Shown: one piece after another, positions 6,339 to 39,437 of the stretch
Layout of the letters: each line of letters begins with the position of its first letter
How positions within the stretch are numbered: the stretch's first letter is position 1
Source: Planctomycetota bacterium
GTDB taxonomy: Bacteria > Planctomycetota > Phycisphaerae > Phycisphaerales > UBA5793
NCBI GenBank assembly: GCA_963205185.1
Contig: CAUJHZ010000064.1
Coordinates: forward strand, 1-39,849
Direction of reading: 5' to 3'
DNA: 39,849 nt
The notes under the pieces: model-generated
Told to the model about the DNA's origin: nothing
Database searches by the model: none
The model's input: the letters and a program-made list of their open reading frames with translations, nothing else
Made by a program: the position numbers and the translations under genes

Positions 6339-7295
6339 ATGCCCCTCATCCTCGGCCCATCCGGCAACACGCTCCTGCTCGGCCCCACCGGCCTGCCGGC
6401 AGCGAGTACGAAATGCTGCTGCTGCAAGGAGGGTGTGGACTGCCCGCACTGTCTGTGCTGTGAATGCTGGGTGTGCGGCGATGGAATCAAGCACGCGCTT
6501 CCGACGGCCGGCTGCCACAACGCCAGCGGCAAGGCCTGCCTGACCGTGACGCTCAGCGGCCTGACGTTCGTGACCAACTGCCGGACGTTCCGCGGCAACG
6601 ACTGCGTGGCCGCGCCCGGGACGTGGGCGTCGTACAAGTACCTCTCCGCCGCCATGCCCGATCTGGTGTTGCCCTTCAACTGGAACGACGGCGCCCCCAC
6701 GCCCATCCGCGATCCCGACCTGCCATGCGCTGAGATCGCGCCCGGCACCGTCTGCCGCCAGTGGCACATGTGCGTCGTGCTGCCCGACACGGGCATCGAC
6801 GCCACGCAGTACGTCAACTCCAACTGCACCGGCACGAGCAACACGTTCAGCGTGCTGATCACCAGCGCCGTGCTCGACTACCAGGTCGTCGGCACGACGC
6901 GCCGCTTCGTCCTCTGGGTCACCGCCTCACCCGCCGGCACCATCCCGATCCCGATCTTCTTCGGCGCTGCGAGTTTCGACGCCCGTCAGTGCGCCAACTA
7001 CTCTACCTGGCCTCTGGTCATCCCCAACGGCCTGAGCAGCACCGCGTGTCTGTGCGGCGGCTCCGGCACTGCAATGCACCCGGCAGCGACAGGCGGCACC
7101 GCGACGTTGACGATGGCGTGCGATGCGGATTGCAGTGGTTTCGACGGTGGTGCGGGGCTGGCGACGCTTGAGAACGCGGGTCCAGCGATTGCGCCGCATC
7201 GCTTTGCCGATGCCGCAGCGATCGATGTGGCTGATGTTCGCGAGGAGCGAAGGCTCGGGTGCCAGAGCTGTCGCAAGCGGCGATCGACCCCATGA
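6339..7295 (+). CDS. Cysteine-rich phage protein
   Basis: A 318-residue frame directly after the tandem repeat. Ten cysteines fall between residues 26 and 46 (CCCC at 26-29, then DCPHCLCCECWVC), and more are scattered through a beta-rich remainder. This dense cluster suggests metal binding or disulfide cross-linking of a virion protein. The last 45 residues (from about GLATLENAG) lose the character of the rest. In the +1 frame over the same bases, RRLRTRVQRLRRIALPMP looks more protein-like, so the true 3' end may be shifted or cut at the prophage right junction near 7200-7300. Function unknown. Confidence 0.6.
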   Translation: MPLILGPSGNTLLLGPTGLPAASTKCCCCKEGVDCPHCLCCECWVCGDGIKHALPTAGCHNASGKACLTVTLSGLTFVTNCRTFRGNDCVAAPGTWASYKYLSAAMPDLVLPFNWNDGAPTPIRDPDLPCAEIAPGTVCRQWHMCVVLPDTGIDATQYVNSNCTGTSNTFSVLITSAVLDYQVVGTTRRFVLWVTASPAGTIPIPIFFGAASFDARQCANYSTWPLVIPNGLSSTACLCGGSGTAMHPAATGGTATLTMACDADCSGFDGGAGLATLENAGPAIAPHRFADAAAIDVADVREERRLGCQSCRKRRSTP

Positions 7296-17424: not shown

Positions 17425-17560
17425 AACGGACTCTGCGAGAGGGCTCGAAGGCGGGAATCAGGACCGATTGTTGGTGGATAACCAGTACCACTTATCGGCC
17501 AATCGGCGGGCCCGGATGAGGTGATAGCGCTGTGCACCAACGCGACCGCTCGGCCTCCGT

Positions 17561-19369
17561 TCATGCCGCATGCCGGGTCGCCGCGGCCGGATCAGCAAGT
17601 TCGTTGATTGCAGTCACAAGACGTGACTCCGCGAGGGGCATTGCAAGCACGCGGTTCGATCGCCGGCCAGCGTTGATCTCAGCGCCCTCCTCGCCACCTG
17701 GCAGGATGACGATGAGCGGCAACTGTCCAACACCCTCTTCACGTTCCGCTTGCGCGAGTCGATCCATAAGTACCGGCAGTGCACTCGGAGTGAACGCATG
17801 AACCACGGCGATGTTGGGCGCTTCATTGCCGCCGGCGCGAAGCTGGTCGCACCAGATCCGCACCGAATCAAATGGCGCTCGCTCGGATACCACGAGCGGA
17901 TTGAACTCCTGAGGAAGTTGTCGGCGGACTTCCTCCCGCTCGTCCGTCCAGCCGGCATCGGCCGACTCCGCCATGAGCGCGAGTTTGAGGTCACTGGTTT
18001 CATTACGGGCGGCTTCTTCGATGCGCGACGTGAGTTCGGGGTCGATCCCGAGCGCTTCACAGAACTCGGCGATGGAATACAGCACGCGATTGCCGCTGTC
18101 GCCAATGAGCAGCGCATGGCAGAGTCGATCCGCCAGGGCGAGCGTCGCCACCTCCGGGAATCGCTTGGCCGCCATGTGCCGGATGTCCGCCACCGAGAGA
18201 TGATGGAACACCACCGGGTCGATCAGCTCCTTGGGGAAGTGCCACGTGTGCAGGAGTCGATCCATCACTTCGGCGTGATTAACCATGAGTAGACGCGACT
18301 CGACCTGCTCCAGGGGGAGTTTCAGTTCATCTGCGGTGCGCAGCACCTGCTCGTAGGTCTCGCCGAGCTCCTGCATGAACAGCAGGCGCCCGAGATCATG
18401 GACAAGTCCCATCGTGAAGGCGGCGTCGGTCTCTTCCGCATTGCGCTCACGGGTGAGATGCGCCGCGATGATCCCGCAGGCGATCGAGTGCTCCCAGAAC
18501 CGCCCGATGTTCACGCGGCCGCACAGGTTGGTCGAACCGAAGTGCTGCACGACGCTCAGGTTGAGCATGGACTGGCGGATCTCGGCAATTCCCAACCGCG
18601 CAACAGCCCTTTCAACTGTGTCGATCGACTGACCTCGGCTGAAGGCCACCGAGTTGGCCAGCCGCAGGATCTTGATCGCCAGGGCGGAGTCCTGCTTGAT
18701 GACCCGGGCAATCTCTTCGGCGGCGCTGTTCTCACGTTCGGTCAGCTTGAGAACCTTCGAAACCGTCGGCGAAAGCGCCTGCAGTTCGCCGGCATTGTCG
18801 ATGCGATCGTACATCTCCGACCGCTTGATCAGTGGCCGCATCAAGCGAAGCCGGGCCGACGGCTCATCTTGAGCCTCCGCCACCGGGTCCACCAGGGACT
18901 GTCCACTCTCTCCGCGCAGCGGCGCTGCACCGTGCGCTGGCGCCGCGACATGCCCGGCCGCTGACTCGGAGGACGCCGGCTCCCCCGACTCCACATGACC
19001 ATGCTCGGCCAGCACGAGTTTGATGCGACTGACGAGTTGATCAATGGAGAATTGGGTTTTGAGCAGATAGTGCCGCGCGCCCAGTTTGCCCGCGCGGATG
19101 ACGTACTCGCGATCAGCGACGGCGGTCAGCAGAATGACCGGCAGACCCCGAAGGCGAGGGTCGCCGCGCATCGCCGACAGCACACTCAGTCCATCCATCC
19201 CCGGCATGGCCAGGTCGAGCAGGACGAGATCGGGAAGCTGATTGCGCGCCAATCGAAGCGCGGTATGACCGTCGCCCGCAGTTCGCACCTCGAATCCGCG
19301 GGTCCGCAGCGCTGCGGCGATCGGTTCCCGGAAGAGATCCATGTCGTCAACGAGTAGGATGGTGGTCAT
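17561..19369 (-). CDS. Response regulator with HDOD output domain
   Basis: 602 residues. The N-terminal receiver (1-125) has the phospho-acceptor D52 in LLDLAMPGMDG and the acidic pair DD at 8-9. After a variable linker, an HDOD domain follows at about residues 200-400, with GLVHDLGRLLF. The C-terminal 110 residues look like a degenerate second receiver (PLIVILPGGEEG). HDOD proteins act in signalling, motility or nucleotide-related control without a known universal ligand. The ATG overlaps the TGA of the upstream kinase gene (ATGA at 19366-19369), so both are translationally coupled and probably act as partners. Confidence 0.88.
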   Translation of the reverse strand: MTTILLVDDMDLFREPIAAALRTRGFEVRTAGDGHTALRLARNQLPDLVLLDLAMPGMDGLSVLSAMRGDPRLRGLPVILLTAVADREYVIRAGKLGARHYLLKTQFSIDQLVSRIKLVLAEHGHVESGEPASSESAAGHVAAPAHGAAPLRGESGQSLVDPVAEAQDEPSARLRLMRPLIKRSEMYDRIDNAGELQALSPTVSKVLKLTERENSAAEEIARVIKQDSALAIKILRLANSVAFSRGQSIDTVERAVARLGIAEIRQSMLNLSVVQHFGSTNLCGRVNIGRFWEHSIACGIIAAHLTRERNAEETDAAFTMGLVHDLGRLLFMQELGETYEQVLRTADELKLPLEQVESRLLMVNHAEVMDRLLHTWHFPKELIDPVVFHHLSVADIRHMAAKRFPEVATLALADRLCHALLIGDSGNRVLYSIAEFCEALGIDPELTSRIEEAARNETSDLKLALMAESADAGWTDEREEVRRQLPQEFNPLVVSERAPFDSVRIWCDQLRAGGNEAPNIAVVHAFTPSALPVLMDRLAQAEREEGVGQLPLIVILPGGEEGAEINAGRRSNRVLAMPLAESRLVTAINELADPAAATRHAA

Positions 19370-20532
19370 GCGGCGCGCCTCTCTCCGGAGCGCCGAACTC
19401 TCTTTGCTCCGCGTAACGGTTCCTCGAGATCAGCCCGGAGCCGGGCGGTGAACACGGTGCCCTTGCCCGGTTCGGACTCGACGGTCAGCTCGCCTCCGTG
19501 CACCGCCACGATGGCCTTGCAGATCGAGAGTCCAAGGCCCGTGCCCTTGACATAGTCCGACCCGAGTGCGCCCGAACTGAGCATAAACGCTTCACCGAGC
19601 TTGGAGACCACTTCCTCGGAGATTCCCGTGCCTGAGTCTTCGACTCGGACCTCGACCCAGGGGTGTCCGCGATGAAGATACTGTCGCGTGTGCAACTCGA
19701 TGAATCCCTCATTGGTGAACTTCGCGGAGTTGCTCACCAGATTGAGTATGAGCCTCTGGACGGCGTTTGCATCGCCCCGGAGATGGAGATTCTCACGCTC
19801 ATGGATGCAGCGCAGTTCCACGCGCCCATGCGCGACGAGCGGGCGCATGACATTGAGGGCCTCTTCACAGGCTTCGGACAGATTGACCGGACCCCAGCAC
19901 CACATGGATCGTCGGCTGTTGAGTCGGGCGGCCTCGAGCATGTTGTTCACAAGCTCTGCCATCCTTATCACTTCGTTGTGCATCGAATGAAGGAACACAT
20001 CCCACTCCGCAGCCTCTTTGGCCTCCGGCGTGAGCAGATACTCCGTGGTGGCGCGCAGCGCGGCGAGCGGGGTGCGAAGCTCGTGCCCCACGATCCCGAG
20101 CACCCGCTCAGCCTCGCGGACCGCCTCGCGCAGGTGGCGCCGCTCGCGCTGCCCGATTTGAACGCGCTTGCGCTCGTAAGCGAACAGCACGCTCCGCACG
20201 AGCACGGTCCCATTAATCTCGTTCTTTCGAAGGAAGTCCTGCGCGCCGCAGCGCAGCGACTGGAGGCCGATGTCCGGGTCGTCCGAGGCGGTCAGAACCA
20301 CGATCGGAAGATCGCGCGCCCCCCGTGCGAGAGTTCGGACTGTGGACAGACCGGAAGAATCGCCGAGCGTCAGGTCGAGAATCATTACGTCGACGTCGTT
20401 CTGCTTCAGGGCCGCCAGGGCTGACGCAGCTGAATCCACCGCCCGCGCTTCGATGTCAGCGGCGCTGTCCTTGAGCAGTTGGATGATCAGCCGCACTTGC
20501 GCCGGATCGTCCTCGACGATGAGTACTCTCAT
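19366..20532 (-). CDS. Receiver-histidine kinase protein
   Basis: A 388-residue soluble protein. The start was set at 20532 because the receiver begins there at its first strand (MRVLIVEDD); the open frame further upstream encodes nothing receiver-like. Receiver phospho-acceptor site in MILDLTLGDSSG, then a coiled-coil linker, a HisKA box with GHELRTPLAAL, N-box NLVSNSAKF, GTGISEE and GTGLGLSI. No membrane helix. REC-first kinases usually relay a signal from another kinase. It is the first gene of the trio and is coupled to the HDOD regulator. Confidence 0.9.
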   Translation of the reverse strand: MRVLIVEDDPAQVRLIIQLLKDSAADIEARAVDSAASALAALKQNDVDVMILDLTLGDSSGLSTVRTLARGARDLPIVVLTASDDPDIGLQSLRCGAQDFLRKNEINGTVLVRSVLFAYERKRVQIGQRERRHLREAVREAERVLGIVGHELRTPLAALRATTEYLLTPEAKEAAEWDVFLHSMHNEVIRMAELVNNMLEAARLNSRRSMWCWGPVNLSEACEEALNVMRPLVAHGRVELRCIHERENLHLRGDANAVQRLILNLVSNSAKFTNEGFIELHTRQYLHRGHPWVEVRVEDSGTGISEEVVSKLGEAFMLSSGALGSDYVKGTGLGLSICKAIVAVHGGELTVESEPGKGTVFTARLRADLEEPLRGAKRVRRSGERRAA

Positions 20533-21167
20533 AGGCCGAAACCACCCTGATCTCTGCCGTCTGGCGGCATGTTGAGCGCTCGATGAGGCTGGTCGCTTCG
20601 TCCTAGAGGCACTCCACACTGCTGGACTCGCTTCCTCCGACAATCGTGGTCGGAACGGCCTCGCCCTCGCAAATATCGGTCAGATTGCGCTATCAATGGA
20701 CTGGAGGGCGAGAACGGGTCTTGCGGTGAGTGCGCGGCCGTCAGGAGCGAGGTCGAGGGTCCGACCGCGCCATTCACCGAGCGAAGACTCGCCAAAGAGC
20801 ATCGGGGATATGCGGCTCCGGCTTTATCAGTTTTGGTGGCGCGTAATGGAATCCAGCAGCGATCCGGCCGGTGACAGCCAATTGCGGAGTCGCGCGAGAA
20901 ACGGTCGTCGCGATACTACTTCGCCGTGTACTGACCGCGGCCCACGCGCTTGAACAGGTCCTTGCGCTTCAGCAGCGTCAGGTTGGGCGCGCACGTGGCG
21001 AGTGGATGCGTATCTACTACTCAATACGGTGGCCACAGGTGGGTTTTCCACCGCCTCGTGCATCTACGGCGGATCTCCTCGTCGTCTTTGAGTCGTCGCT
21101 TGGAGGTGACCGTCAAGGCCGCGTTGTGCCACGGGCTGAGGCCCCATCGAGACGGGTCGGGAGTGAG
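20533..21167. other. Long intergenic region with a gene relic
   Basis: About 635 bases between the signalling trio and the STAS gene. The recognisable content is the winged-helix fragment at 20916-20984 and an inverted repeat GGTGG-GTTTT-CCACC near 21031-21045, without a T-run. It should also contain the promoter of the minus-strand trio, which I could not pinpoint. No convincing intact gene on either strand. Confidence 0.4.
20916..20984 (-). pseudogene. C-terminal fragment of a small winged-helix-like protein, copy 2
   Basis: The minus strand reads NLTLLKRKDLFKRVGRGQYT then AK and TAG. The first 20 residues are identical to copy 1 at 7415-7569, and the DNA is near-identical over about 60 bases. 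Upstream of the asparagine codon similarity stops abruptly. This copy keeps the expected AK-stop end that copy 1 lost by a two-base insertion. Confidence 0.6.
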
Positions 21168-21624: not shown

Positions 21625-22200
21625 TCAATCGTCCCGTACATGTTGTGCGAGGATCCACACTTGCAGTTCGTTGGTGCGGATGACATCCGAAACAATGACG
21701 TCATTCGTCCCTTCGTCGCCTGAGGCTGCCGCCTCCCTAGCCATCGCGCGAGCTTCCAGCAGGATGATTTCATGCGCATGGAGCAGCCTGGCGAGCTGTG
21801 CTGCGAGATCTTCCCGTCCCTTGGGTGGCCGCGGAATGCCGGTACCCTCCGCGACATCGGCCGCCATGGCGATCGCGACGCCGCCCAACGTCTGGATATG
21901 TTCCGCGATGGTGTCAATGATCCGCGACTGCTCCTCGAAGTGCTTGTCGAATAGCAGATGCAGCATGTAGAACATCGGCCCGGTGACCTGCCAGTGGTGC
22001 TTCTTATACAAATCGCGCAGCGTCATCGAGTCTGCAAGGAGCTGGTTGAGGTTGTCGATGCTGGCGAGCGATGCATTCGCGTCCAACGCGAGCGTTGTCC
22101 GCTGCGCGTGCCTGAAGCCTTGCACTTCACCGGTTTTTGACGGAACCACCGGCTCCTTCAGGTGCTTGGAATCGCCGCGTGTGATGGTTGAACGTGTCAT
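21625..22200 (-). CDS. dps: Dps-family ferritin-like DNA-protection protein
   Basis: 191 residues. Dps stores iron and consumes peroxide in dodecamers, and may bind DNA through its basic N-terminus. All four ferroxidase ligands are present at the right spacing: H69, H81, D96 and E100 (the Listeria pattern H31-H43-D58-E62). Motifs KKHHWQVTGPMFYMLHLLFD and IDTIAEHI are typical. ATG 22200 has AAGGAGG seven bases upstream. It is the first gene of a dps-STAS operon behind the conserved box promoter at 22234-22281. Confidence 0.92.
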   Translation of the reverse strand: MTRSTITRGDSKHLKEPVVPSKTGEVQGFRHAQRTTLALDANASLASIDNLNQLLADSMTLRDLYKKHHWQVTGPMFYMLHLLFDKHFEEQSRIIDTIAEHIQTLGGVAIAMAADVAEGTGIPRPPKGREDLAAQLARLLHAHEIILLEARAMAREAAASGDEGTNDVIVSDVIRTNELQVWILAQHVRDD

Positions 22201-22233: not shown

Positions 22234-22281
22234 ATCATGGTCCGGCTGACGCGCGTTCACCATGCGGACACTTCCCCTATC
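22234..22281 (-). promoter_or_regulatory. Box promoter 1, upstream of dps-STAS
   Basis: Read on the minus strand: GATAGGGGAAGTGTCC at 22281-22266, then 26 bases, then CATGAT at 22239-22234. The -10 is 33 bases before the dps ATG. There is no -35 match, so activator dependence is likely; the box would span about -54 to -39. Confidence 0.75.
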
Positions 22282-22736
22282 TAAGCGGGACGGATCGCAC
22301 GATGATTCCCGCCAGCCGTCACGGCGACGCCGATGCGCTCGACGGTAATGTCGGCAGGTGGATACGTAGCCATGATCATGGGGTCGTGCGCATTGTGCCC
22401 TTGGCGCGGAAACGCTCCGGTACATTCGAACACGAGCTCGACGCCCAACTTCTTCCAGACCAGTTCCGCAGGGTCGCGGATGTTCAGTGTTCGCACCATG
22501 CGGTCGGTGATCACAAGGTCGCCCGGGTCAACCGTCACTGGCTTGGAGTAAAGCCCATATGCCGTGTCGACGCGCAGCAGATATGCATGGCTCTCGACGT
22601 CGGCCAGGTTGTTCACCGTGACCACCTCCATTGATGGCTCGTCGCTGGTCAGCTTCAGGATGGCGCAGCTGATCCGTCCCAGGCCGTTGATGGGCACCTT
22701 CGTTTTCGTACCGCTGTTCCTTCGTTGGCGTCGCAT
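22281..22736 (-). pseudogene. Remnant of glyceraldehyde-3-phosphate dehydrogenase (N-terminal part)
   Basis: The frame encodes KVPINGLGRISCAILK, MEVVTVNNLADVESHAYLLR, DTAYGLYSKPV, and VFECTG, the NAD-binding half of GAPDH. The nucleotide-binding motif GRIGR is altered to GRISC, and no ATG sits at the natural start (KTKV follows ACG). After ECTG the sequence leaves the family, and the catalytic Cys domain is absent. It lies between the flavoprotein gene and dps on the same strand. A decayed gene. Confidence 0.75.
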
Positions 22737-25353: not shown

Positions 25354-25665
25354 TCAATCCAAGAGCCCGTCACGGATCGATTCCGGCCTCACGTCGTGCA
25401 AATGCCGTTCCGCCTGCAGCCAGTCGGACACTGCGTCGCCGCCTTGGCCATTGCGCGCCAGGAAGTTCTGGTAGGCGCGGCAGCGGATGAGTTCGGTCGA
25501 GATGGCGGGATGCGTCGACGTCTTGGGCTGAGAATGCCGCTTCGATTTGCCAGCCTTCCTGCTGCTGGTGTTCTTGTGCATGGGCATGGCGGCGCTCATC
25601 TTGTGCACTGATTCGCTTGCCGCGAGTTTGCCGCGCTTGCTGCTCGTGTCCTTGTGAATGTGCAT
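25354..25665 (-). CDS. DUF2934-domain protein with basic N-terminus
   Basis: 103 residues from ATG 25665, with GAGGAG eight bases upstream. The C-terminal half (ISTELIRCRAYQNFLARNG then DWLQAERHLHD) matches the DUF2934 pattern, in which an arginine-rich helix is followed by a W-x-x-AE motif. The N-terminal part has two similar blocks, MHIHKDTSSKRGK and MHKNTSSRKAGK, suggesting internal duplication and nucleic-acid contact. Function unknown. A second DUF2934 protein is encoded at 25989-26387. Confidence 0.7.
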   Translation of the reverse strand: MHIHKDTSSKRGKLAASESVHKMSAAMPMHKNTSSRKAGKSKRHSQPKTSTHPAISTELIRCRAYQNFLARNGQGGDAVSDWLQAERHLHDVRPESIRDGLLD

Positions 25666-25734
25666 TGCAGTACTCCTCGATTGAATGTGGATAGATATGT
25701 CATTGGTCGACGGGGTCATACCTTGGGCTCCGTG

Positions 25735-25992
25735 CTAGCCTCCCTTCACTCCGTTCCCTGGTTCTTTCCTCGCGAGTTCAGCGGCATAGCCGGCGCTCTC
25801 CACCGTTCGGACCAGTTCGGCCGCAACGCACGGCGGCTCGTGGACGATCGTGGCGCAGGATCGATAGAGGCTGACAGCCACATCATTCACGCCCGCGATC
25901 GACTCAATCGCTTCAGCGATCGTCTCCCGACACGCGTTGTCGCGCATCCCGGCGATCATCAACACGGTTGTTGTGATTCCTGTTGTCATCAT
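25735..25992 (-). CDS. HMA-like small protein lacking the first metal cysteine
   Basis: 85 residues. TTTVLMIAGMRDNACRETIAEAIESIAGV followed by NDVAVSLYRSCATIVHE and VRTVESAGYAAEL has the beta-alpha-beta pattern of heavy-metal-associated domains. Those normally bind Cu+ or Zn2+ through GMxCxxC. Here the first cysteine position holds aspartate and only the second Cys remains (GMRDNAC), so classic metal binding is unlikely unless C-terminal cysteines help. The ATG overlaps the stop of the upstream DUF2934 gene (ATGA), so the two are coupled. Confidence 0.6.
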   Translation of the reverse strand: MMTTGITTTVLMIAGMRDNACRETIAEAIESIAGVNDVAVSLYRSCATIVHEPPCVAAELVRTVESAGYAAELARKEPGNGVKGG

Positions 25993-26387
25993 GAGTTCGC
26001 CATTGCCGCACCTGTCAACTGGAGTGCATCTGGATTCTCGCTCGAGGCGCGTTCGCACGTGTGTTGCTTCTTCGCTCGCCGCACCCCATTTCGGGGGTGA
26101 CAATGCTCCGACAATCTGGCCGACTTGCGCTCCCGCTGACCAGGCGGCATCCCTCGATTGATCGCTTGATCCTGCACTGACGGCGCGACATGTACCACCG
26201 CCGTCTCGTCCGCCTCGACTCGGGCCTGCGCGACGATCTGCTGGAGATGCCGCTCGGCCTCGATCCAGTTGAGGGCGTCGTTGCCGCCGAAGAGTCGCCA
26301 CAGTTCCTCAGCGATTGCCGCCACCAGTCGATGGGTCAGGTCGATCTCACGTTGCGGGTCGAGGATGGGTCGCACGATGATCTTCAT
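25989..26387 (-). CDS. DUF2934-containing protein, first gene behind box promoter 2
   Basis: 132 residues. The N-terminus MKIIVRPILDPQREIDLTHRL leads into VAAIAEELWRLFGG and WIEAERHL, the DUF2934 pattern. The last 70 residues are polar, basic and probably disordered; a GC-rich inverted repeat (CACCCC-ATTTC-GGGGGTG) lies under them near 26085. GGAGACC precedes ATG 26387. The 3' end overlaps the HMA-like gene. The transcript starts from the conserved box promoter at 26432-26479. Confidence 0.65.
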   Translation of the reverse strand: MKIIVRPILDPQREIDLTHRLVAAIAEELWRLFGGNDALNWIEAERHLQQIVAQARVEADETAVVHVAPSVQDQAINRGMPPGQRERKSARLSEHCHPRNGVRRAKKQHTCERASSENPDALQLTGAAMANS

Positions 26388-26431: not shown

Positions 26432-26479
26432 ATCATGCCACGTGCGAGCAGCGGACTGTACTGGGAAACTTCCCCTATC
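26432..26479 (-). promoter_or_regulatory. Box promoter 2, upstream of DUF2934-HMA; may also serve the divergent kinase gene
   Basis: Minus strand: GATAGGGGAAGTTTCC at 26479-26464, exactly 26 bases, then CATGAT at 26437-26432, 44 bases before ATG 26387. GGGAAACTTCCC inside the box is a perfect palindrome, so it could also activate the divergent kinase gene at 26558, where TAAGTT lies at a comparable distance. Confidence 0.75.
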
Positions 26480-26557
26480 GCGGATGCAGCGTTACCGTGT
26501 TTAAGTTCACGAAGCGCAGTCCGTGGGACAGCGGGAATCCGCATACACTATGTGTTG

Positions 26558-28393
26558 ATGGGCACCAGCCGTTCCAAGCATCAGAAGCCGTCGCCGGTCG
26601 CAAGCCCGACCCGCTTGAAGGGTGACGTAACAGCACGTCGCACTTCAAGCGCGGCGAAAGAGAACAAGCTGTCACACGCACCGCCTGTGTTCGAGGAGGC
26701 GCTAGCAACGTGGGAGAACGAGGGCGGCCTGGTTCAGGAGCGCTCTCAGCCCCGGCACCTCCCACGGACAGAACCCGAGGCTTCTCAGACCGTTTCCATC
26801 TCACAGCAGGCGTCTCCAAAGTCTCTGCCGTTGAACCCCGTGCCGTACAAGGCTGTCCTCGCCGCCGCGCTCGATCCAATCATCACGGTCGACGGCGCTG
26901 GTATCATCCAGTCAGTCAGCAACTCGGTGCAGCGCATGTTCGGTTGGACCCCGGCTGAACTGGTCGGCAGGAACGTCAGCATCCTTATGCCCGAACCGCA
27001 TCGTTCGGAGCACGACGGGTACCTCGCCGAGTACCACAAGACCGGGCGCACCGAACATCTCAATCGCGCACGACGATTTGAGGCTGTGCGAAAGGACGGG
27101 ACGTTTTTCCCCATTGAGGTCTGCGTTTCGCGCGTCGATCTTAAGGGACACGCGCCACTATTCGTCGGCATCATCCGCGACTTGATCAATCACGATCGGG
27201 TGAGCGCCGGGAATGGCGCTGAGCCGGGTAACGTGGCGCTTGAGGCGGAGGACAACACGCAGTTGCACGAACTGCTCGCCGAGCAGACCGCCGCTCTCCA
27301 GGCGGCGCACTTGCGCCTGCGCATGTCGGATCGCATGGCGTCGATCGGCGCGCTCGCCGCGGGCCTGGGCCACGACATGAACAACGTGCTGTTGCCTGTG
27401 CGGGCGCACCTCAACGCCGCCCGCGCGCTGACCATGATCCCGGAGGTGCGCAAGCATGTCCTAGCTGTGCAGAAGAGTGTGGTGTACCTCCAGCAGCTCG
27501 CCGATGCCTTGCATTTCCTTGCATTCGACACGGATGGCAAGGACGACGAGCGAGGCGCGACCGATGTGCGCGCGTGGTGGTCGCAGGTCGGGCCGTTTCT
27601 CGCCAAGGCCGTGCCCAAGCACGTGAAAGTTGTCGTATCCCTGCCCAAGGGTTTACCGGAGGTAGCGATTTCTGCCCATGGTTTGACACAGGCGGTGCTG
27701 AACCTGGTCGTCAACGCGGGGCAAGCGATTCCCGCGCCACCAGCGCCCGGCCAAGGGAGAGAGAGGGGCCGCAAGCGCCGCCAGAGACTCGTGCGCATCT
27801 GGGCCGAATCGATCGAAAGCGACGGCGGGGGGCGTGTCCGCGTCGGCGTGACCGACAACGGTGTTGGCATGTCGGCAGAGGTACAACGAAATGCGTTCGA
27901 GATGTTCTACACCACCAAGACGCGCGGGCTAGGCACGGGACTTGGTTTGCCGCTCGTGGCCAAGGTAGTCAGCCGCGCCGGTGGGTCGGTCCACATCGAC
28001 TCTGCACTCGGCAAGGGCACGACTGTAGAAATCCTGCTTCCTGTCGCGGCCCATGAAACACGACGATCAGATGCACTCGCCGCAGTCGTCACGCTGACAG
28101 ACGGCCGGGCCGCAGTCCTCATCCAGCACTTGCTCGAAGTCGCCGGCGTTCGGACTGCGCTCGGCACCGATCCGACTGGCGCCGACATTTGGATCATGGA
28201 ACCAACGAAGGGAAGCGCTGCGGGGGCAAAGGCTTGGCGCAAACGCCATCCTCACAGCGGGCTGGTCTTGTTCGGAAAACCCGCCTCCGGCTCAGCCCGA
28301 GCGTGGAGTTCGCTCCACCCAGATACAATCGAAGACCCGGACGACCTTGATGCAATCCGCATCGCGCTCAGTCGCGTGATTGCTGGTTCATGA
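26558..28393 (+). CDS. FixL-like PAS sensor histidine kinase, candidate haem-based O2 sensor
   Basis: 611 residues from ATG 26558. The frame is open upstream, but that part covers the shared promoter region. Residues 1-90 are polar and disordered. The PAS domain (about 95-210) has SILMPEPHRSEHDGYLAEY and RKDGTFFPIEV, very close to FixL. H152 aligns with the FixL haem-ligand histidine (RHD in Bradyrhizobium), and R172 with the arginine that contacts bound O2 (IGIGR position). The kinase core has H272 in GLGHDMNN, N-box NLVVNAGQA, DNGVGM and GTGLGLPL. The C-terminus resembles a degenerate receiver. No membrane helix, so a cytoplasmic sensor. The stop overlaps the start region of the LuxR-type regulator: a cognate pair. 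Confidence 0.82.
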   Translation: MGTSRSKHQKPSPVASPTRLKGDVTARRTSSAAKENKLSHAPPVFEEALATWENEGGLVQERSQPRHLPRTEPEASQTVSISQQASPKSLPLNPVPYKAVLAAALDPIITVDGAGIIQSVSNSVQRMFGWTPAELVGRNVSILMPEPHRSEHDGYLAEYHKTGRTEHLNRARRFEAVRKDGTFFPIEVCVSRVDLKGHAPLFVGIIRDLINHDRVSAGNGAEPGNVALEAEDNTQLHELLAEQTAALQAAHLRLRMSDRMASIGALAAGLGHDMNNVLLPVRAHLNAARALTMIPEVRKHVLAVQKSVVYLQQLADALHFLAFDTDGKDDERGATDVRAWWSQVGPFLAKAVPKHVKVVVSLPKGLPEVAISAHGLTQAVLNLVVNAGQAIPAPPAPGQGRERGRKRRQRLVRIWAESIESDGGGRVRVGVTDNGVGMSAEVQRNAFEMFYTTKTRGLGTGLGLPLVAKVVSRAGGSVHIDSALGKGTTVEILLPVAAHETRRSDALAAVVTLTDGRAAVLIQHLLEVAGVRTALGTDPTGADIWIMEPTKGSAAGAKAWRKRHPHSGLVLFGKPASGSARAWSSLHPDTIEDPDDLDAIRIALSRVIAGS

Positions 28394-28410
28394 TTGAGGA
28401 GGCTCTCGCG

Positions 28411-29250
28411 ATGCCCAAACTCAGTGCACGCTCCACTAAGACGAACACGTCCACGCAACCGAAATCAGTTTCGGCGAAGCCGATCCGTCGCGCTTCCAAC
28501 AAATCGTCGCGGCAAGCCACAGCTTCGAACACCACCACTTCCAATGCTTTCACCGGCATTCGCGTGCTGTGCGTGGACGACCACGCCGTGCTTGTCGAGG
28601 GCCTCAGGTCGCAGTTTGCCATCCAGGATCGCATCCGCATCGTCGGCAGTCTGGAGTCACCAGCGAACCTGCTCGAAGAAACGGCGCGACTGAATCCCGA
28701 TGTGGTCCTGCTCGACATCGAGATGCCCGGCCCAGACGTCTTCGAGATGGCCGACCGCCTCCGCCAGATGCACCCGCGCGTGCGCTTCGTTCTTCTCAGC
28801 GCGCACATTCGTGATGGTTATCTTGCTGCTGCGTATAAGTGCGGCGCTTGGGGGTACTTCGCCAAGGGCGACAATCTGGAAGATATCGTCAGCGGCGTTC
28901 GTAAAGTTGCCCGAAGTACGTCGGGGACATTCGTCATGGGGCCAAAGGTCAACGCTCGCCTTCAGCCGCCTCAATCCCGCCGGCCCGGCGAGGCGCCCGT
29001 GCGCCGACGACGCAAGGGCGCCGATGCCGGTCATGGGTCAGTGACCTCGCTGTCCTCACTTACGCCGCGCGAAGTGGCGGTGCTGCGTCTCATCGGCAAG
29101 GGACTTTCTCGCATGCAGATCGCTGGGGAACTCAGCCGTAGCGTCAAGACGATTGACGGCCACCAGGAGCGCATGATGAAAAAACTCGGCATCACGTCCC
29201 GCTCCGACCTCATGCGCTTCGCGATCCGCGAAGGCTTTGCCGAGGCATAA
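28411..29250 (+). CDS. LuxR/NarL/FixJ-type response regulator
   Basis: 279 residues from ATG 28411, chosen for GAGGAGG eight bases upstream; ATG 28390 overlapping the kinase stop is the alternative. A basic, serine-rich N-terminal tail of about 45 residues precedes the receiver, which has the acidic pair DD in VLCVDDHAV and the phospho-acceptor D102 in VLLDIEMPG. The C-terminal LuxR-type HTH has LTPREVAVLRLIGKG and SVKTIDGHQERMMKKLGI. It is the only DNA-binding regulator in the stress island and the natural partner of the FixL-like kinase. I infer that it binds the GATAGGGGAAGTTTCC box. The long tail before the receiver is unusual. Confidence 0.88.
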   Translation: MPKLSARSTKTNTSTQPKSVSAKPIRRASNKSSRQATASNTTTSNAFTGIRVLCVDDHAVLVEGLRSQFAIQDRIRIVGSLESPANLLEETARLNPDVVLLDIEMPGPDVFEMADRLRQMHPRVRFVLLSAHIRDGYLAAAYKCGAWGYFAKGDNLEDIVSGVRKVARSTSGTFVMGPKVNARLQPPQSRRPGEAPVRRRRKGADAGHGSVTSLSSLTPREVAVLRLIGKGLSRMQIAGELSRSVKTIDGHQERMMKKLGITSRSDLMRFAIREGFAEA

Positions 29251-30391: not shown

Positions 30392-30439
30392 CATGAGGGA
30401 CGTTTCCCTGTCGGCGGGCCAGATGGCGAGTTCTATTCT
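30392..30439 (+). promoter_or_regulatory. Box promoter 3, upstream of the hibernation factor gene
   Basis: CATGAGGGACGTTTCC at 30392-30407, 26 bases, then TATTCT at 30434-30439. GGGACGTTTCCC (30397-30408) keeps the palindromic core. The -10 is 23 bases before ATG 30463. Confidence 0.7.
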
Positions 30440-30462: not shown

Positions 30463-30891
30463 ATGCAGATGGACATCCATGCCCAGCCTTTCGAACTGAC
30501 CAGGGCTCTTGAGCAGCACGTCACACAGCGCGTCGAGCAAGCTATCGGCACGGCCTCAAGGTCCTTCCGAGTGATCATGGTTCGGCTTCTGGATGTGAAC
30601 GGCGAGCGCCGCGGCGTGGACATGGCCTGTCGCATCGTTGCGTGGCTTCGCCTCGACCGCACCGTCATGGTCGAGGCGGTTGATCGCGACCTGTATGCCG
30701 CGATCGACGCTGCCTCTTTGAAGTTGCGCGTGGCCCTTCGGCGGCGCTTGAGCCGTCGGCGGACGTTGCGGTGCGAGCGCCCAAATCGCCCAGTGCGCGC
30801 CTATCTGCAGGTCGGGCGGCGCGTGTCGATGCCTTTGTGGTTGAACTGGCCTGTATTCAAACCACCCTTCAAGAGAGAATGGAAGCCGTGA
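30463..30891 (+). CDS. hpf: Ribosome hibernation promoting factor / RaiA-like protein
   Basis: 142 residues starting MQMDIHAQPFELTRALEQHV, the beta-alpha start of HPF/RaiA proteins that bind the 30S decoding site and silence ribosomes. The central VEAVDRDLYAAIDAASLKL segment followed by arginine-rich LRVALRRRLSRRR matches the second helix and its basic end. The C-terminal 40 residues (RPVRAYLQVGRR onward) are specific to this protein and lack the dimerisation domain of long HPF. GGAGGT lies five bases before the ATG. The box promoter just upstream fits induction in dormancy. Confidence 0.82.
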   Translation: MQMDIHAQPFELTRALEQHVTQRVEQAIGTASRSFRVIMVRLLDVNGERRGVDMACRIVAWLRLDRTVMVEAVDRDLYAAIDAASLKLRVALRRRLSRRRTLRCERPNRPVRAYLQVGRRVSMPLWLNWPVFKPPFKREWKP

Positions 30892-32903: not shown

Positions 32904-33161
32904 TCAAACGCAGCCGTCCTTGATTTCGCGCGCGATCATCTCCTTCAACGTCTTGACGATCGCCTGATCCTGCTGCTTGACCTCGCGCCAGAACTGCTGC
33001 AGATCGGGGCGGCCCTCGGCATTGGCGATGTGCTGGTCGTAGCGCCAGGGGCCGTCCAGTCGCTTGCTCAACTCGTGAATGAGGTCATGGTCATGATTCT
33101 CGCAACCCTTGCACTGTCCGATCGCGGCCTGGTTCGGCTTCTTCTCAGCGGTGACTGACAT
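32904..33161 (-). CDS. Small helical protein, first gene of the OsmC operon
   Basis: 85 residues from ATG 33161, preferred over ATG 33173 because GGAGG then lies five bases upstream. After CKGCENHDHDLIHELSKRLD and RYDQHIANAEG comes LQQFWREVKQQDQAIVKTLKEMI, a pattern of two long helices with His/Asp/Glu residues reminiscent of ferritin- or hemerythrin-like short proteins. Two cysteines at the start (CKGC) could bind metal. Function unknown; transcribed from box promoter 4. Confidence 0.65.
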   Translation of the reverse strand: MSVTAEKKPNQAAIGQCKGCENHDHDLIHELSKRLDGPWRYDQHIANAEGRPDLQQFWREVKQQDQAIVKTLKEMIAREIKDGCV

Positions 33162-33198
33162 GGGGCCCTCCATTCGTGAGTTAGATTTGACCGGCGCC

Positions 33199-34236
33199 TC
33201 ATGCCGTGTGCCACGACGATGTAGTGAAGCGCTTGATCCAGAGCATTAAACCACCCGGCGGCGCAGACCCGCTACGAGGACATTTCCCCCATGTGCATCG
33301 AGTCTTCGCCCGGTCCGGCTGGGTTGGAGCCTGTTCGTGAAAGCCCATACGACTCTGGTGGTTCAGCAGCAGGTAGCAATGGATCAGCCCGCGGTACGGC
33401 CGCCAGATTGCGAGGATTCGATGCATATGGTCGAAGTTGGACCGCTGCTTGTGCTGCAACCAGTGTTGCATTTTGTTCTGGCTGCCCACATCGTCAGCGG
33501 GAAACACATCCATCCGTCCCAGGCCGCGCAGCAGGACGTACTGCGCGGTCCAGCGACCGATCCCGTTCAGGTCAATGAGACGATCCTGCGCTGCTGCGGT
33601 ATCCATACTCGCAAGCGCCTCTAGGTCCAAGCTGCCTTCGACGACCGATTTCGCAATGTCGAGAATGACCTGCGCCTTGCGGATGCTGAAGCCGAGTTTG
33701 CCAAGATGCGACGGCGCTGCGGACGCGAGATCGATCGGCCGAAGGAAAGCGTGGTGTTCGCCGACCGCCAAGCCGTAGGCGCGAGAGAGGCGGTTGAGCA
33801 GGTGGATCCCGACCTGCAACGAAAGCCGCCGGCACGCGATGCCGTTGACCAGTGCCTCGAACACCGACGGCAAACGCGGCGGCTTAATGCCAATGAAGGG
33901 ATCGATGAGGCCGGCAAGGCGCGGGTCGTTTTCGGCCAGTCGACTGAATGAGTGCAAGTCGATGTTGAGGCCAAGCATGGTATCGAGCGTCAAGATCAGC
34001 GCTTCACGCGTGGCGCGACTCAGGCGCGAGCCTTTGGTCGTGACGGTCAATTGCGGCGCGCCAGCAGAGCCGCGTTGCACCACGGCCACTTCAACGGGCA
34101 CATCGTCCAGCAGGAGCACACGGCGATAGGTCGCTCCATCCCAACGGTCCATGCCGTTGATCGGAAGGCGGCGCAGCACCCAGACCGTCAAGTCCAATCG
34201 GAACGGCGGCAGAGGTTTCATCGTGAAGACAGCCAT
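33199..34236 (-). CDS. alkA: AlkA-like DNA-3-methyladenine glycosylase II
   Basis: 345 residues. It removes alkylated purines in base excision repair. The helix-hairpin-helix LNGIGRWTAQYVLLRGLG (223-240) and MDVFPADDVG with catalytic D249 match AlkA. The N-terminal 100 residues carry the AlkA-type beta domain (RLDLTVWVLRRLPINGMDRW). The last 45 residues (about 300-345) leave the family and cover the box promoter of the next operon, so the functional C-terminus may be shorter in ancestors. ATG 34221 is a possible alternative start. Coding begins 14 bases after the upstream small gene. Confidence 0.88.
   Translation of the reverse strand: MAVFTMKPLPPFRLDLTVWVLRRLPINGMDRWDGATYRRVLLLDDVPVEVAVVQRGSAGAPQLTVTTKGSRLSRATREALILTLDTMLGLNIDLHSFSRLAENDPRLAGLIDPFIGIKPPRLPSVFEALVNGIACRRLSLQVGIHLLNRLSRAYGLAVGEHHAFLRPIDLASAAPSHLGKLGFSIRKAQVILDIAKSVVEGSLDLEALASMDTAAAQDRLIDLNGIGRWTAQYVLLRGLGRMDVFPADDVGSQNKMQHWLQHKQRSNFDHMHRILAIWRPYRGLIHCYLLLNHQSRMGFHEQAPTQPDRAKTRCTWGKCPRSGSAPPGGLMLWIKRFTTSSWHTA
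33245..33293 (-). promoter_or_regulatory. Box promoter 4, upstream of the OsmC operon
   Basis: Minus strand: CATGGGGGAAATGTCC at 33293-33278, 27 bases, then TTTAAT at 33250-33245. It lies inside the 3' end of the upstream AlkA reading frame and 84 bases before ATG 33161, giving a leader of roughly 75 bases. Confidence 0.65.
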
Positions 34237-34598: not shown

Positions 34599-34646
34599 GA
34601 TAGGGGAGATTTCCGCATAGCTCCTGCGCGCCGCGCGCCGCATGAT
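34599..34646 (+). promoter_or_regulatory. Box promoter 5, upstream of the molybdoenzyme operon
   Basis: GATAGGGGAGATTTCC at 34599-34614, exactly 26 bases, then CATGAT at 34641-34646. The start of transcription would be near 34653, which excludes start codons of the operon's first frame upstream of it and decides for TTG 34758. Confidence 0.75.
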
Positions 34647-34757: not shown

Positions 34758-35855
34758 TTGTCGACGTCACTTCTCAAATCCGGTCTCTGGGCCACGATCG
34801 TCACCGGATTACTCGCGATTCTGATCTTGCTGGGATCGCGTAACCTGGCGCACCTCGACGCGGCGCTGGTGGGGTATCTCTTCGCGTCACTCTTTGCCAC
34901 CTTCGGGTTGACCTACCGATACACGATGTGGCTACAGCGCCCGCCGACCGCGATGTACTGGCGGCGAGGGTGGCGAGTGTTCTTTCGCTCGGGCCATCTG
35001 TGGAGAAACACGGCGGAGTGGTTCCGGCGTTTCTTCCGGGGTTTTGCCCTGAATATCTTCATCTGGAAGCGAGGCCGATCCCGTTGGGCCGCGCACTGGC
35101 TGATCATGTGGGGCTGCATTCTCGCGTCCGCGATCACCTTCCCGCTCGTCTTCGGCTGGATCCACTTCGAGACTCTGCCGGGCAACTTTGAGTGGTATCG
35201 TGCGTACGTCTTCGGCGTGCCGACCTTTGCCTTCCCAATCGACTCCATCCTCGGGTTCGTCACGTTTCACGGACTGGTGTGGGCGGCCTTTCTTGTGATC
35301 GGCGGCGTGATGATCGCGATGCGACGCCGCATGCGCGAGCACGGTGCGGCGGCGGTGCAGGAATTTGGCGAAGACATCCTTCCGCTCATCCTGCTCTTTG
35401 CCATCAGCGTCACCGGGCTGATGCTCACGGCGAGTTACACGTGGATGCGGGGCTACGCCTTTGACTTCCTCGCCATCCTGCACGCGATCACCGTCATCTT
35501 CACGCTGCTCTACCTGCCATTTGGCAAGTTCTTTCACATCTTCCAGCGCCCGGCGCAATTGGGCGTCGCGTTCTACATGGATGTGGGCGCCGCGGGCGGA
35601 CAAGCCGTATGCCGGCGCTGCGGGGAGCCATTCGCATCACGAATGCAGGTGGAAGACCTGATCACCGTGGAACATCAACTCGGATATCGATACGAACTGC
35701 CGAACTCGTCCGTCGAGCACTACCAGTGGATCTGTCCGCGCTGCCGGCGCTCGATGCTGGCGGTGGCGCAAGGCGCCCTGTGGGAGTCGGCTCGTGCGGA
35801 AGAATCGCGAGCGTCAGCGCTCACCAACGCAATGGACCCTGCAGGATTCGAGTGA
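34758..35855 (+). CDS. Membrane subunit of a molybdoenzyme complex with Cys-rich cytosolic tail
   Basis: 365 residues from TTG 34758, with AAGGGA nine bases upstream; the longer open frame begins upstream of the promoter. About six hydrophobic segments, with [20 protein letters not shown] and [20 protein letters not shown], resemble cytochrome b/NarI-type or HdrE-like membrane subunits; [23 protein letters not shown] and [12 protein letters not shown] place histidines suitable for haem b. After the last helix the tail carries [11 protein letters not shown] and WICPRCRRS, two CxxC pairs forming a possible zinc or rubredoxin-like site. It probably exchanges electrons between the quinone pool and the Fe-S subunits. 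Confidence 0.75.
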
Positions 35856-35891
35856 TTCACCCGCGATCCGTCACGGCATAGATGGAGCATC

Positions 35892-38138
35892 ATGGCCACC
35901 CTGCCCGCCGAAAAACTTCAGATCATCCAGGAATACGGCCCGCACGGCGCGTTCATGTCGGGCATCCGCCTCGACCCCGGCGTCGAACCCGATCGGATCG
36001 TCAAGACCCACTGCTGTTTCTGCGGACAACAGTGCGGCATCCAACTCAAGGTCAAGGACGAGCAGGTCATTGGCTTTGAACCCTGGCTCGAGTTCCCCTT
36101 CAACCGCGGAATGCTCTGCCCGAAAGGCGTGAAGCGCTATCTCCAGGACTCACACCCGGATCGATTGCTCAACGCCGTCGAGCGCGACGCGTCTGTCCCG
36201 AGCGGGTTCAAACCGATCGAGTACGAAGCAGCGATCCGTCGGGTGGCGGAGGCGATCAAGCGCATCCAGAACGAACATGGCCCCGATTCCTTTGCCATCC
36301 TCACGGGCGCGAGTCTCACGACGGAGAAGGCGTATCTGATCGGAAAGTTCGCTCGCATGGCGCTGCGAACGGCGAACATTGACTACAACGGCCGCTTGTG
36401 CATGGTGAGCGCCGCGGCGGGCAACAAGAAAGCGTTTGGGATTGACCGGGCGGCGAATCCATGGAGCGACATTCCGAAGTCCGAAGTCGTCTGGATCAGC
36501 GGCGCCAATGTCGGCGAGTGCGCCCCCATCACCACCGACTATGTCTGGCAGGCGCGCGAGAACGGCGCGAAGATCATCGTCGTCGATCCGCGCATCACGC
36601 CCATTGCCCGTACGTGCGATCTTTTCCTGCCCGTGAAGCCGGGACGCGATGCGGCTTTGTTCAATGGCATCCTGCATCTCATGATCGAACACGACTGGAT
36701 CGATCATGCGTTCATTGAAAGACACACCGTCGGGTTCGATGCCGTCGCGGCCAGCGTGAAAGAATGGACGCCGCAGAAGACCGCCGACGTGACGGGCATT
36801 GCGGTCAAGGCGATCCAGCGCGCCGCGGAATGGTGGGGAACGGCCAAGTCGAGTTTCCTCATGCACGCGCGCGGGATCGAGCACCACGCGCACGGCGTGC
36901 AGAACGTGCTGGGCGCCATCAACATCGTCCTCGCCTCGGGTCGCATCGGGCGCGAAGGCGGGGGCTACGCCACGATCACCGGTCAGGGCAATGGGCAGGG
37001 CGGGCGCGAGCACGGCCAGAAGTGTGATCAATTGCCCGGCGCACGGGATATCTCCAACCCCGAACACCGCGCGTTCATCTGCAAAGTCTGGGGGATCGAA
37101 GAAGCGGATCTGCCCAAGGCCGGCGTGGACGCCTACGAGATCATCCGCCAGATCGATCGGGGAGAGATTCGCGGGCTGATCAGCATCTGCTTCAATCCGC
37201 AAGTCTCTCTGCCGGACAACAACTTCGTCAGCCAGGCGCTGGACAAACTCGAGTTCTACGCCGCGATTGACTTCTTCCTGAACGAGACGGCCCAGCACGC
37301 CGACATCGTCCTTCCCGGCTCGCTGCATGAAGAAGATGAAGGCACAGTCACACAACTCGAAGGACGCGTGATCAAGATCAACAAGGCAGTCGACTGTCCC
37401 GGCGAAGCCCGACAGGACTGGAAGATCATCCAGGACATCGCCCACACCCTGGGGCGGGAACACGGCCTGACGTTTGCCTCACCCGCGGAAATCTTCGACG
37501 AACTTCGTATCGCCAGCAAGGGCGGTGTGGCGGACTACTCGGGCATCACTTACGAGAAGATTGAGAAGCAATTCGGCGTGTTCTGGCCATGCCCGAGCGA
37601 TGATCATCCCGGGACGCCGCGTCTGTTTGAGCCCGGCTCGTGGAATCCGGTCGCCAAGGGCTCCGGGCCGTTCTACTTCCCGGATGGCAAAGCACGCTTC
37701 AACATCGCGCAGTACCGCCCGCCCGTCGAAGATACGGACGCCGAGTACCCGCTCATGCTCACGACCGGGCGCGTGGTCAGCCACTTTCTCTCCGGCTCGC
37801 AGACGAGGCGCATTGGCCCGCTTGTGGAGCAGTATCCCGAGCCGCGTATCGAATTGCATCCGCGGCTCGCCGAGCAACATGGCATCGCGGACAACGACTG
37901 GGTGACGGCCGAGACGCGGCGCGGCGACACGACGCTGCGGGCGATGGTCGTCACCACCATTCGGCCCGACACCATCTTCATCCCCTACCACTGGCCGGGA
38001 CGCAAGAGCGCCAACCAACTCACCAACTCGGCCCAGGATCCGATCTCCAAGATTCCAGAGTACAAGGCGTGCGCCGTGCGCATCCGCAGGGCCCAGGGCC
38101 CACCCGATTGGGAGGCCGAACTCGAACCGCAGCAGTGA
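35892..38138 (+). CDS. Molybdopterin oxidoreductase, NarB/Nas nitrate reductase-like
   Basis: 748 residues. The N-terminal [4Fe-4S] motif is C41-x2-C44-x3-C48 and C76 (GMLCPKG). [12 protein letters not shown] has C170 as the likely Mo ligand, as in Nap/Nas enzymes; formate dehydrogenases have Sec or Cys in a different setting. [14 protein letters not shown] and [19 protein letters not shown] bind the pterin guanine dinucleotides. No twin-arginine signal, so the protein is cytoplasmic. GGAG precedes the ATG. The combination with a Rieske protein and a membrane subunit rather than a flavoprotein argues for a membrane-linked reductase or dehydrogenase. Substrate (nitrate, formate or other) cannot be decided from sequence. 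Confidence 0.85.
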
Positions 38139-38209
38139 GGCAGTTGAAGCGCCGTGGGCGGCCTCGGCATCGGGGCGCCTGAATCCGCGACGTCATGACA
38201 GGAGTGGTG

Positions 38210-38833
38210 ATGCCCGTTCCGGAACACCTTGAGTTCTTTATTGACCCCAGTCGCTGCATCGGATGCGAATCGTGCGTGCAGGCGTGCAGCGAGTGCGACA
38301 CGCATCGCGGCCATTCGATGATCCATCTCGAATACGTCGAACGCTCGCGAACCACGCAGACGACGCCGGTGATCTGCATGCACTGCGACTCTCCGACCTG
38401 CGCGGAAGTCTGCCCGGCGGACGCCATCAAGCGCACCGAGGACGGCGTGGTGCAGAGCGCCCGCAAGCCGCGCTGCATCGCGTGCAGCAACTGTGTACTG
38501 GCGTGCCCCTTCGGCGTGCCAAAGATGAAGTCCGATCTCGAACTGATGATGAAGTGCGATATGTGCTACGACCGCAGTTCGGTGGGCAAGAAGCCGATGT
38601 GCGCGTCGGTGTGTCCCAGTCAGGCGCTGTTCTTTGGCGCGCGCGAGGAGATCGAGCGCCTGCGCAAGCGATCGGCGGCGGTCAACCGCTTTCGCTTCGG
38701 CAACCAAACGGTAACGACGAAGGTGAACATGATGGTGCCGCGCGACGCCCGCCCCGAATACGTTGATGTGGCCGCAGCGATGGAGGAGGATTCGCTCGGC
38801 GGGGACATCATGCTCAACGTGTTGTCGACTTAG
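38210..38833 (+). CDS. Four-cluster ferredoxin subunit (DmsB/NrfC-like)
   Basis: 207 residues from ATG 38210, chosen because GGAG lies five bases upstream; ATG 38195 is the alternative. Cysteine motifs [39 protein letters not shown] and MKCDMCYDR with CASVCP give four [4Fe-4S] sites, the pattern of electron-transfer subunits of molybdoenzymes. No Tat signal, in line with a cytoplasmic complex. It would connect the Mo subunit with the Rieske and membrane subunits. Confidence 0.9.
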
Positions 38834-38888
38834 TACCCCAGTGTGCGGCAGCAACGACCGAGAGGACCCTTCACAGGCAGGCAGACAC

Positions 38889-39437
38889 ATGACCCGACCT
38901 GATCTCAATCAAATCGTTAGAACTCCGGACGGGCGACCCGAGGTCGAACAACCCAAGTGGCGTCGCGACTTTCCGATCGATCTCCCGCAGGACGAGTACG
39001 TTGCGCGGCGCGATTTCACCAAGTTCATGGTTCTTACCAGTCTCGCCTTCGCGGTCGGTCAAATCTGGATCGGAATCGAAAACTGGCGGCGCCGACGGCG
39101 CGGCCAGCCGCCGATCGCGGAGATCGCCAAGGTGAGTGACGTACCGATCGGTTCGACGATCACTTTCGCGTATCCTCAGCCGCATGACGCCTGCCTGCTC
39201 GTTCGCACCGGAGAACTGACTTGGCTGGCCTACGCCCAGGAGTGCACGCATCTCGCGTGCGCGGTCATTCCGGAAGTCGACAAAGGCCAGTTTCGTTGTC
39301 CTTGCCACCATGGCTACTTTAGTCTCACCACGGGCCGGCCCATCGCCGGGCCGCCGCGCCGGCCTCTGCCGCGCATCACGCTCGATGTACGAAATGGCGC
39401 GGTCTATGCCACCGGCGTGGAGGAACGCACCACATGA
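38889..39437 (+). CDS. Membrane-anchored Rieske iron-sulfur protein
   Basis: 182 residues from ATG 38889. An N-terminal stretch FTKFMVLTSLAFAVGQIWIG anchors the protein. The [2Fe-2S] ligands are in ECTHLACAVIP and CPCHHGYFSL; two further cysteines can form the stabilising disulfide of the Rieske fold. The first part (RRDFPIDLPQDEYVARRDF) is cytosolic. It ends in an ATGA overlap with the next gene. A Rieske subunit beside a Mo-reductase and a four-cluster ferredoxin suggests coupling with quinol oxidation. Confidence 0.9.
   Translation: MTRPDLNQIVRTPDGRPEVEQPKWRRDFPIDLPQDEYVARRDFTKFMVLTSLAFAVGQIWIGIENWRRRRRGQPPIAEIAKVSDVPIGSTITFAYPQPHDACLLVRTGELTWLAYAQECTHLACAVIPEVDKGQFRCPCHHGYFSLTTGRPIAGPPRRPLPRITLDVRNGAVYATGVEERTT

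Follow-up and report, generated by a model that had tools for sequence, protein, structure and literature searches.

A FixL-like PAS hybrid kinase and a NarL-type regulator as a candidate low-oxygen switch with its own operator in a planctomycete

A stretch of planctomycete DNA of 39,849 nucleotides (hereafter the window) encodes a PAS-containing histidine kinase and, directly behind it, a response regulator with a LuxR-type DNA-binding domain. A sequence-only reading of the window had proposed that this pair is an O2-controlled master switch of the FixL-FixJ kind, acting through five boxes on the same island. The locus therefore raises two questions: whether the regulator acts at these boxes, and which signal reaches it through the kinase.

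The open reading frame of the kinase spans positions 26435–28393 of the forward strand, and a plausible ATG is at 26558, from which residues of the 611-residue protein (26558..28393) are counted here. The extended start at 26435 was rejected because one of the boxes (box 2, see below) would fall within the coding part. The regulator gene (28390..29250, forward strand; 286 residues, alternative ATG at 28411) overlaps the kinase gene by ATGA, and the surrounding genes are mostly on the minus strand. Both genes thus lie where they had been placed before. Pfam identified PAS and HATPase_c domains in the kinase, a soluble PAS histidine kinase, and found no GAF domain of the kind that holds haem in DosRST-type sensors. 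The H-box of the DHp domain is GLGHDMNN, and H272 (27371..27373), which is invariant in the alignment of orthologs, is the predicted phospho-accepting His. A C-terminal domain (residues 504–611, 28067..28390) was missed by Pfam; its AlphaFold model (pLDDT 91) has a (beta-alpha)5 receiver-like fold, and the top Foldseek matches were receiver domains. Only one of the usual two Asp residues is conserved in this domain, leaving the acid pocket incomplete, and the acceptor position is occupied by Glu in the window kinase and by Asp in some relatives. The model suggests a hybrid kinase with a degenerate receiver, different from classical FixL. With the curated FixL equivalog the kinase reached 131 of 850 bits, the PAS domain being the best stretch.

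In the regulator, Pfam found Response_reg and GerE domains, bearing out the NarL/FixJ-type HTH described earlier; a phosphorylatable REC domain followed by a GerE/LuxR HTH is characteristic of the NarL/FixJ class. The full phosphorylation set (D63, D64, D109 and K159) is present in the REC domain, the phospho-site D109 is invariant, and the recognition helix in the LuxR HTH is KTIDGHQERMMKKL. Membership of the FixJ family itself was ruled out by model scores: the protein reached 48.5 of 255 bits with the FixJ equivalog, far under the model cut-off, and scored better as MctR (123.8) and NarL (95.4). A reading as a FixL-FixJ system proper is not supported, given these scores and the additional receiver-like domain in the kinase. 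That the regulator is the sole DNA-binding response regulator in the window was confirmed, as the other three response-regulator proteins (HK-REC-Hpt, REC-HDOD and REC-HK) have no DNA-binding domain in Pfam.

One scan yielded nineteen relatives of the regulator from Phycisphaerales/Planctomycetes, and nearly all of them have the kinase gene directly upstream. A 24-nt motif, GATNRGGGAARTTTCCGCGTRGAG, with the dyad core GGGAARTTTCC, is common to the flanks of these genes. With a cut-off of 16.5 bits, the matrix of this box matched 66 times in the 439 kb of 22 clade loci and never in the 138 kb of 8 paralogous kinase-regulator loci, several of which have the FixL residues in their PAS domains; reversed-sequence controls contained almost none. 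Among eight held-out clade loci, outside the training set, six had sites of 15–25 bits and two (L060 and L064) had none; the site at a held-out ccoNO promoter was also within this range. A survey of 151 genomes from the order placed sites with one mismatch or none in four genomes only, all with close orthologs of the regulator. The sites lie about 3 kb or less from the regulator gene in three relatives and on the regulator's island in the window genome. Four congeners that contain paralogs only, and lack the regulator, have no box with at most one mismatch. A stricter pattern, which is too strict for sensitivity and serves as a specificity check only, matched once in 397 genomes of the class, at a regulator locus (G103). 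In 17 of the 22 loci a box is just upstream of the kinase gene, usually facing a divergent small gene, and autoregulation of the kinase-regulator pair is likely. A pattern search of the genome to which the window belongs placed every site with at most one mismatch in the window; the matches outside it had two mismatches and scored no more than 15 bits when the full matrix was applied. The designation as a master switch is thus appropriate for the island only; beyond the island, this search revealed no convincing box. Two paralogous kinase-regulator pairs in the same genome (G000:C63:116494-119666 and C35:3829-5705; L065 and L066) have no such boxes; the PAS domain of the C63 pair is FixL-like, with the equivalents of H200, R220 and I215 all kept.

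The box matrix was built from the 24 nt alone, and the -10 region took no part in finding the boxes. In the 60 nt past the box, a -10-like hexamer (consensus CATGAT) begins exactly 18 nt downstream: of 58 sites, 45 have the A..T of this hexamer at offset 18, and 0–14 have it at any other offset. Upstream of the -10, at a distance of 17 bp, box positions 19–24 (TRGAG.) form a poor -35. At this fixed spacing the dyad has its centre near -43.5, an arrangement typical of an activator that contacts the -35 region, and the bound regulator probably activates these promoters rather than represses them.

The predicted recognition helix provided additional evidence. It contains KTIDRHQ in L030–L034 and KTIDGHQ or KTVDGHQ in the other regulators, including that of the window, and mostly KTVDGHR in paralogs. 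At base 4 of the box, T occurs in 26/26 sites near KTIDRHQ regulators and in 0/32 near the KTIDGHQ/KTVDGHQ group, figures that reflect essentially a single clade split and not independent events. Two genomes contain both types of regulator (L033 with L036, and L034 with L038), and each regulator has its own box variant beside it, which argues against a genome-wide bias. The link between the pair and the boxes, first proposed from location, gene content and the palindromic core, is now supported by co-occurrence, phylogenetic specificity, fixed promoter geometry and co-variation of helix and operator, and binding of the regulator to the boxes can be predicted with high confidence.

Boxes in the window were scored with a matrix trained with the window omitted (chance expectation about 0.03 per window at 20 bits or more). 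Four of the five proposed boxes scored 20–27 bits, and the offset of 18 nt was exact in 4/5, the site at 33270 being one nt off. Box 1 (22258..22281, minus strand; 26.9 bits; -10 CATGAT at 22239–22234) precedes a gene for a Dps-family ferritin (21625..22200, minus), a predicted target. Box 2 (26456..26479, minus; 24.3 bits; -10 CATGAT at 26437–26432) is located between the kinase gene and a small conserved divergent gene (25989..26387, minus) that is box-driven in most relatives. Box 3 (33270..33293, minus; 20.4 bits; -10 TTTAAT at 33250–33245) is in front of another predicted target, a gene for a small conserved HDHDLI protein (32904..33173, minus), homologs of which are also boxed in L030 and L034. 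Box 4 (34599..34622, plus; 25.8 bits; -10 CATGAT at 34641–34646) precedes a predicted target operon (34758..39437, or up to 39714, plus; TTG start at 34758) for a membrane cytochrome-like subunit, a molybdopterin oxidoreductase, and 4Fe-4S and Rieske proteins. Box 5 (30392..30415, plus), before a gene for an S30AE ribosome hibernation factor (30463..30891, plus), scored 12.8 bits, no better than chance when judged by score; the box and its target are kept as tentative because a -10 sequence, TATTCT (30434–30439), is exactly 18 nt downstream and the S30AE gene is boxed in a relative (L030). Two more sites were treated as chance: one at 4823 (16.7 bits), where a -10 is absent at the right place, and one at 28392, within the regulator gene. 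Box 1 starts at the 3' end of a glyceraldehyde-3-phosphate dehydrogenase gene (22281–22736, minus) of which only the N-terminal NAD domain is left. The region 25354–26387 (minus) codes for small DUF2934-type proteins and a CopZ/HMA-like protein that are conserved next to the kinase gene in roughly a dozen relatives.

Genes downstream of boxes in relatives encode universal stress, BON, CBS and HMA proteins and a fused ccoNO (cbb3 oxidase). Among 15 ccoNO genes in regulator-bearing genomes, clear sites were present in L082 (27.5 bits), L083 (24.1 bits) and L084 (18.7 bits), sites in L073 and L087 were weak or opposite in orientation, and 10 genes had no site, suggesting that the oxidase (3–5 boxed genes out of 15) belongs to the regulon in some lineages only. 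By their predicted functions, the boxed genes (Dps, stress proteins, hibernation factor and, in relatives, cbb3 oxidase) represent a low-oxygen/dormancy regulon. We found no such regulon described for planctomycetes in the open-access literature, nor the operator or a planctomycete equivalent of the system. Sensor, regulator, precise operator, promoter geometry and target list of a putative planctomycete low-oxygen/dormancy regulon are thus available in one system.

The PAS domain (26846..27181) contains the motifs MPEPHRSEHDGYLAEY and RKDGTFFP, both of which had been quoted for its similarity to FixL. A phmmer search against PDB gave the haem domain of Bradyrhizobium japonicum FixL (BjFixL) as the best match (E=5e-25); the nearest solved structures were FixL only (B. 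japonicum first, then 1d06), followed by DosP-type haem PAS domains. In the predicted kinase model, the PAS domain is 2.1 A from BjFixL 1drm, with 41% identity. H152 (27011–27013) corresponds to H200 of BjFixL, the proximal haem His, and R172 (27071–27073) to R220, the O2-contact Arg, in agreement with the roles and numbering proposed earlier. These two residues are kept in most orthologs. We consider haem binding by this PAS domain probable. Other FixL features are not conserved: the distal hydrophobic triad I215/L236/I238 is replaced by His/Val/Val, with H167 (27056–27058) at the I215 position, and the signalling residue Arg206 is Glu. The distal His is shared by the window protein and its subclade (L030–L034), and Ile is present in most other orthologs (Val in L041); the Arg206 equivalent in the same subclade is Glu, Lys, Gln or Ala. 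The protein is therefore a natural distal-pocket variant of the FixL haem domain. An Arg206 substitution in BjFixL, R206A, weakened the effect of O2 on the kinase (PMC10765370). With the kept haem ligand and O2-contact Arg weighed against the distal Ile-to-His change, the altered Arg206 and the loss of the haem His in two relatives, sensing through haem is likely and O2 sensing in this protein is close to even, low O2 being slightly favored as its signal; for relatives in which the distal Ile is intact, the probability is higher. The earlier proposal of O2 control is thus partly supported for the window kinase: the haem ligand, the O2-contact Arg and the cbb3 boxes in relatives speak for it, and the changes at Ile215 and Arg206 against it.

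Taken as a whole, these data are best explained by a haem-PAS kinase and a cognate NarL-type regulator that form a self-contained two-component switch for the boxed genes, responding to low O2 or to a related haem ligand or redox state, and we regard this explanation as reasonably probable. When O2 (or the related ligand or redox state) at the PAS domain falls below a threshold, the kinase would phosphorylate D109 of the regulator. A regulator dimer would occupy the GGGAARTTTCC dyads near -43.5, touching the degenerate -35, a step with strong comparative support. From there it may recruit sigma-70 polymerase as a class II-type activator, as the geometry suggests. The predicted outcome is expression of a hypoxia/dormancy set: Dps, hibernation factor, the molybdo-oxidoreductase operon and small stress proteins, and in relatives universal stress, BON and CBS proteins and cbb3 oxidase.

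The same circuit could respond to NO, CO or redox state in this subclade, if the distal H167 ligates the iron or blocks O2; this is a less probable but substantial alternative. The Ile-to-His change in the window protein and L030–L034, where nearly all other orthologs have Ile, and the Glu at position 206 are in its favor, as is the behavior of Sinorhizobium meliloti FixL with I209M (the I215 position), which bound CO, gave no clear oxy Soret band and largely lost the O2 complex (PMC10765370). Dps and the Mo-oxidoreductase would suit redox stress equally well. However, R220 is kept, and relatives with Ile215 and the same operator drive cbb3 oxidase. It is also conceivable, although unlikely, that the PAS domain is no gas sensor at all (haem-free or a relic) and that the kinase responds to another signal, such as redox or energy state, in part via its receiver-like domain. 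PAS similarity is no proof of haem occupancy, and two loci (L061 and L055) still carry boxes after loss of the haem His; yet, with only two exceptions, the PAS domains compared, paralogs included, keep H200 and R220 together, and FixL is by far the nearest solved relative.

The pair-box link rests on comparative evidence, and a different regulator might act on the boxes with the pair as a mere neighbor; this is very improbable in view of the phylogenetic co-occurrence, the absence of boxes at paralogous loci and in congeners, and the co-variation of helix and operator inside single genomes, and the conserved neighbors include no further regulator. Asymmetric conserved flanks (GAT ... GTRGA) and the constant spacing to the -10 would also be expected if the boxes were promoters of an alternative sigma factor. 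This reading, to which we give hardly any weight, was ruled out on spacing, as the GGGAA block is about 33 nt upstream of the -10, beyond -35 range; the core, moreover, is dyad-symmetric.

We compared the proposed low-oxygen switch with known systems. In rhizobial FixL-FixJ, the haem-PAS kinase shares the proximal His and the O2-contact Arg with the window kinase, the regulator is of the NarL/FixJ class and, as in some planctomycete relatives, cbb3 oxidase is a final target. This system differs from the window pair in Ile215 (His here), Arg206 (Glu here), the extra receiver-like domain and the low FixJ score, and it controls fixK and nifA, whereas the window pair is predicted to control stress genes directly, via a different operator. 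The rhizobial variant hFixL carries a C-terminal receiver domain. The hFixL-FxkR system of Rhizobium leguminosarum resembles the window pair in combining a "hybrid" FixL variant with a non-FixJ regulator, and places cbb3 oxidase under low-O2 control through FixK; its K-boxes are GTTACA-N4-GTTACA at -62, in contrast to GGGAARTTTCC dyads near -43.5 here (PMC7888657). DosS/DosT-DosR (DevR) of mycobacteria and OsdK-OsdR of Streptomyces also have a NarL-type regulator, a haem-sensing kinase (in mycobacteria), GGG-rich palindromic operators around the regulator gene and a universal-stress/dormancy regulon (PMC4082495, PMC5069765). Unlike the window kinase with its PAS domain, DosS/DosT hold haem in a GAF domain, and the OsdR operator, AGGGCCGATCGGCCCT, differs from the GGGAARTTTCC box in core and length; the box is not a DosR/OsdR-type palindrome, and the pair is no member of DosRST by sequence. 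NmpRSTU of Myxococcus xanthus controls a similar hypoxia regulon that includes genes for cbb3 oxidase, a universal stress protein and CBS proteins, but through a globin-coupled sensor and an NtrC-type activator, and is convergent (PMC11841059). By these comparisons, the pair is best described as a putative DosRS/hFixL-like switch with a new operator, alike in logic and targets but lacking several features that define FixL-FixJ and DosRST; it would be a counterpart, built from different parts, of the DosR dormancy system of mycobacteria.

The whole box-gene set lies on an island that is missing from the congeners examined. Only 404 bp separate the counterparts of window positions 7282 and 34757 in G004, where some 27.5 kb with the pair and all boxes are absent; G019 likewise has about 0.4 kb in this place, and part of the left half (6.5–17.5 kb) is present elsewhere in its genome. 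The molybdo-oxidoreductase operon has 95% DNA identity in two congeners without the regulator. The match ends at the start codon, and their DNA upstream of the operon contains no box. Island and box promoter thus appear to have been gained or lost together, and the same operon with and without a box in sister species may represent a natural promoter acquisition. A broader scenario, which we offer as speculative and rather doubtful, is that planctomycetes have a family of haem-PAS hybrid kinases and that the distal Ile-to-His change in one of its subclades altered the sensed ligand (NO, CO or redox) or gave a bis-His haem. The subclade would have kept a horizontally moved regulon with a new operator, and the island would also have brought the box promoter to a pre-existing molybdo-oxidoreductase operon. 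Contamination of the contig was dismissed, since the flanking Mo-oxidoreductase has 98% protein identity to its counterparts in congeners, one of which also has a Cache kinase with 84% identity. A three-gene signalling cluster (14851–20643, minus; Cache kinase-REC-Hpt, REC-HDOD and REC-kinase) adjoins the island. A second molybdo-oxidoreductase, 85% identical in protein sequence, is encoded in the same genome (G000:C34:81016-83259, L093), with no box upstream.
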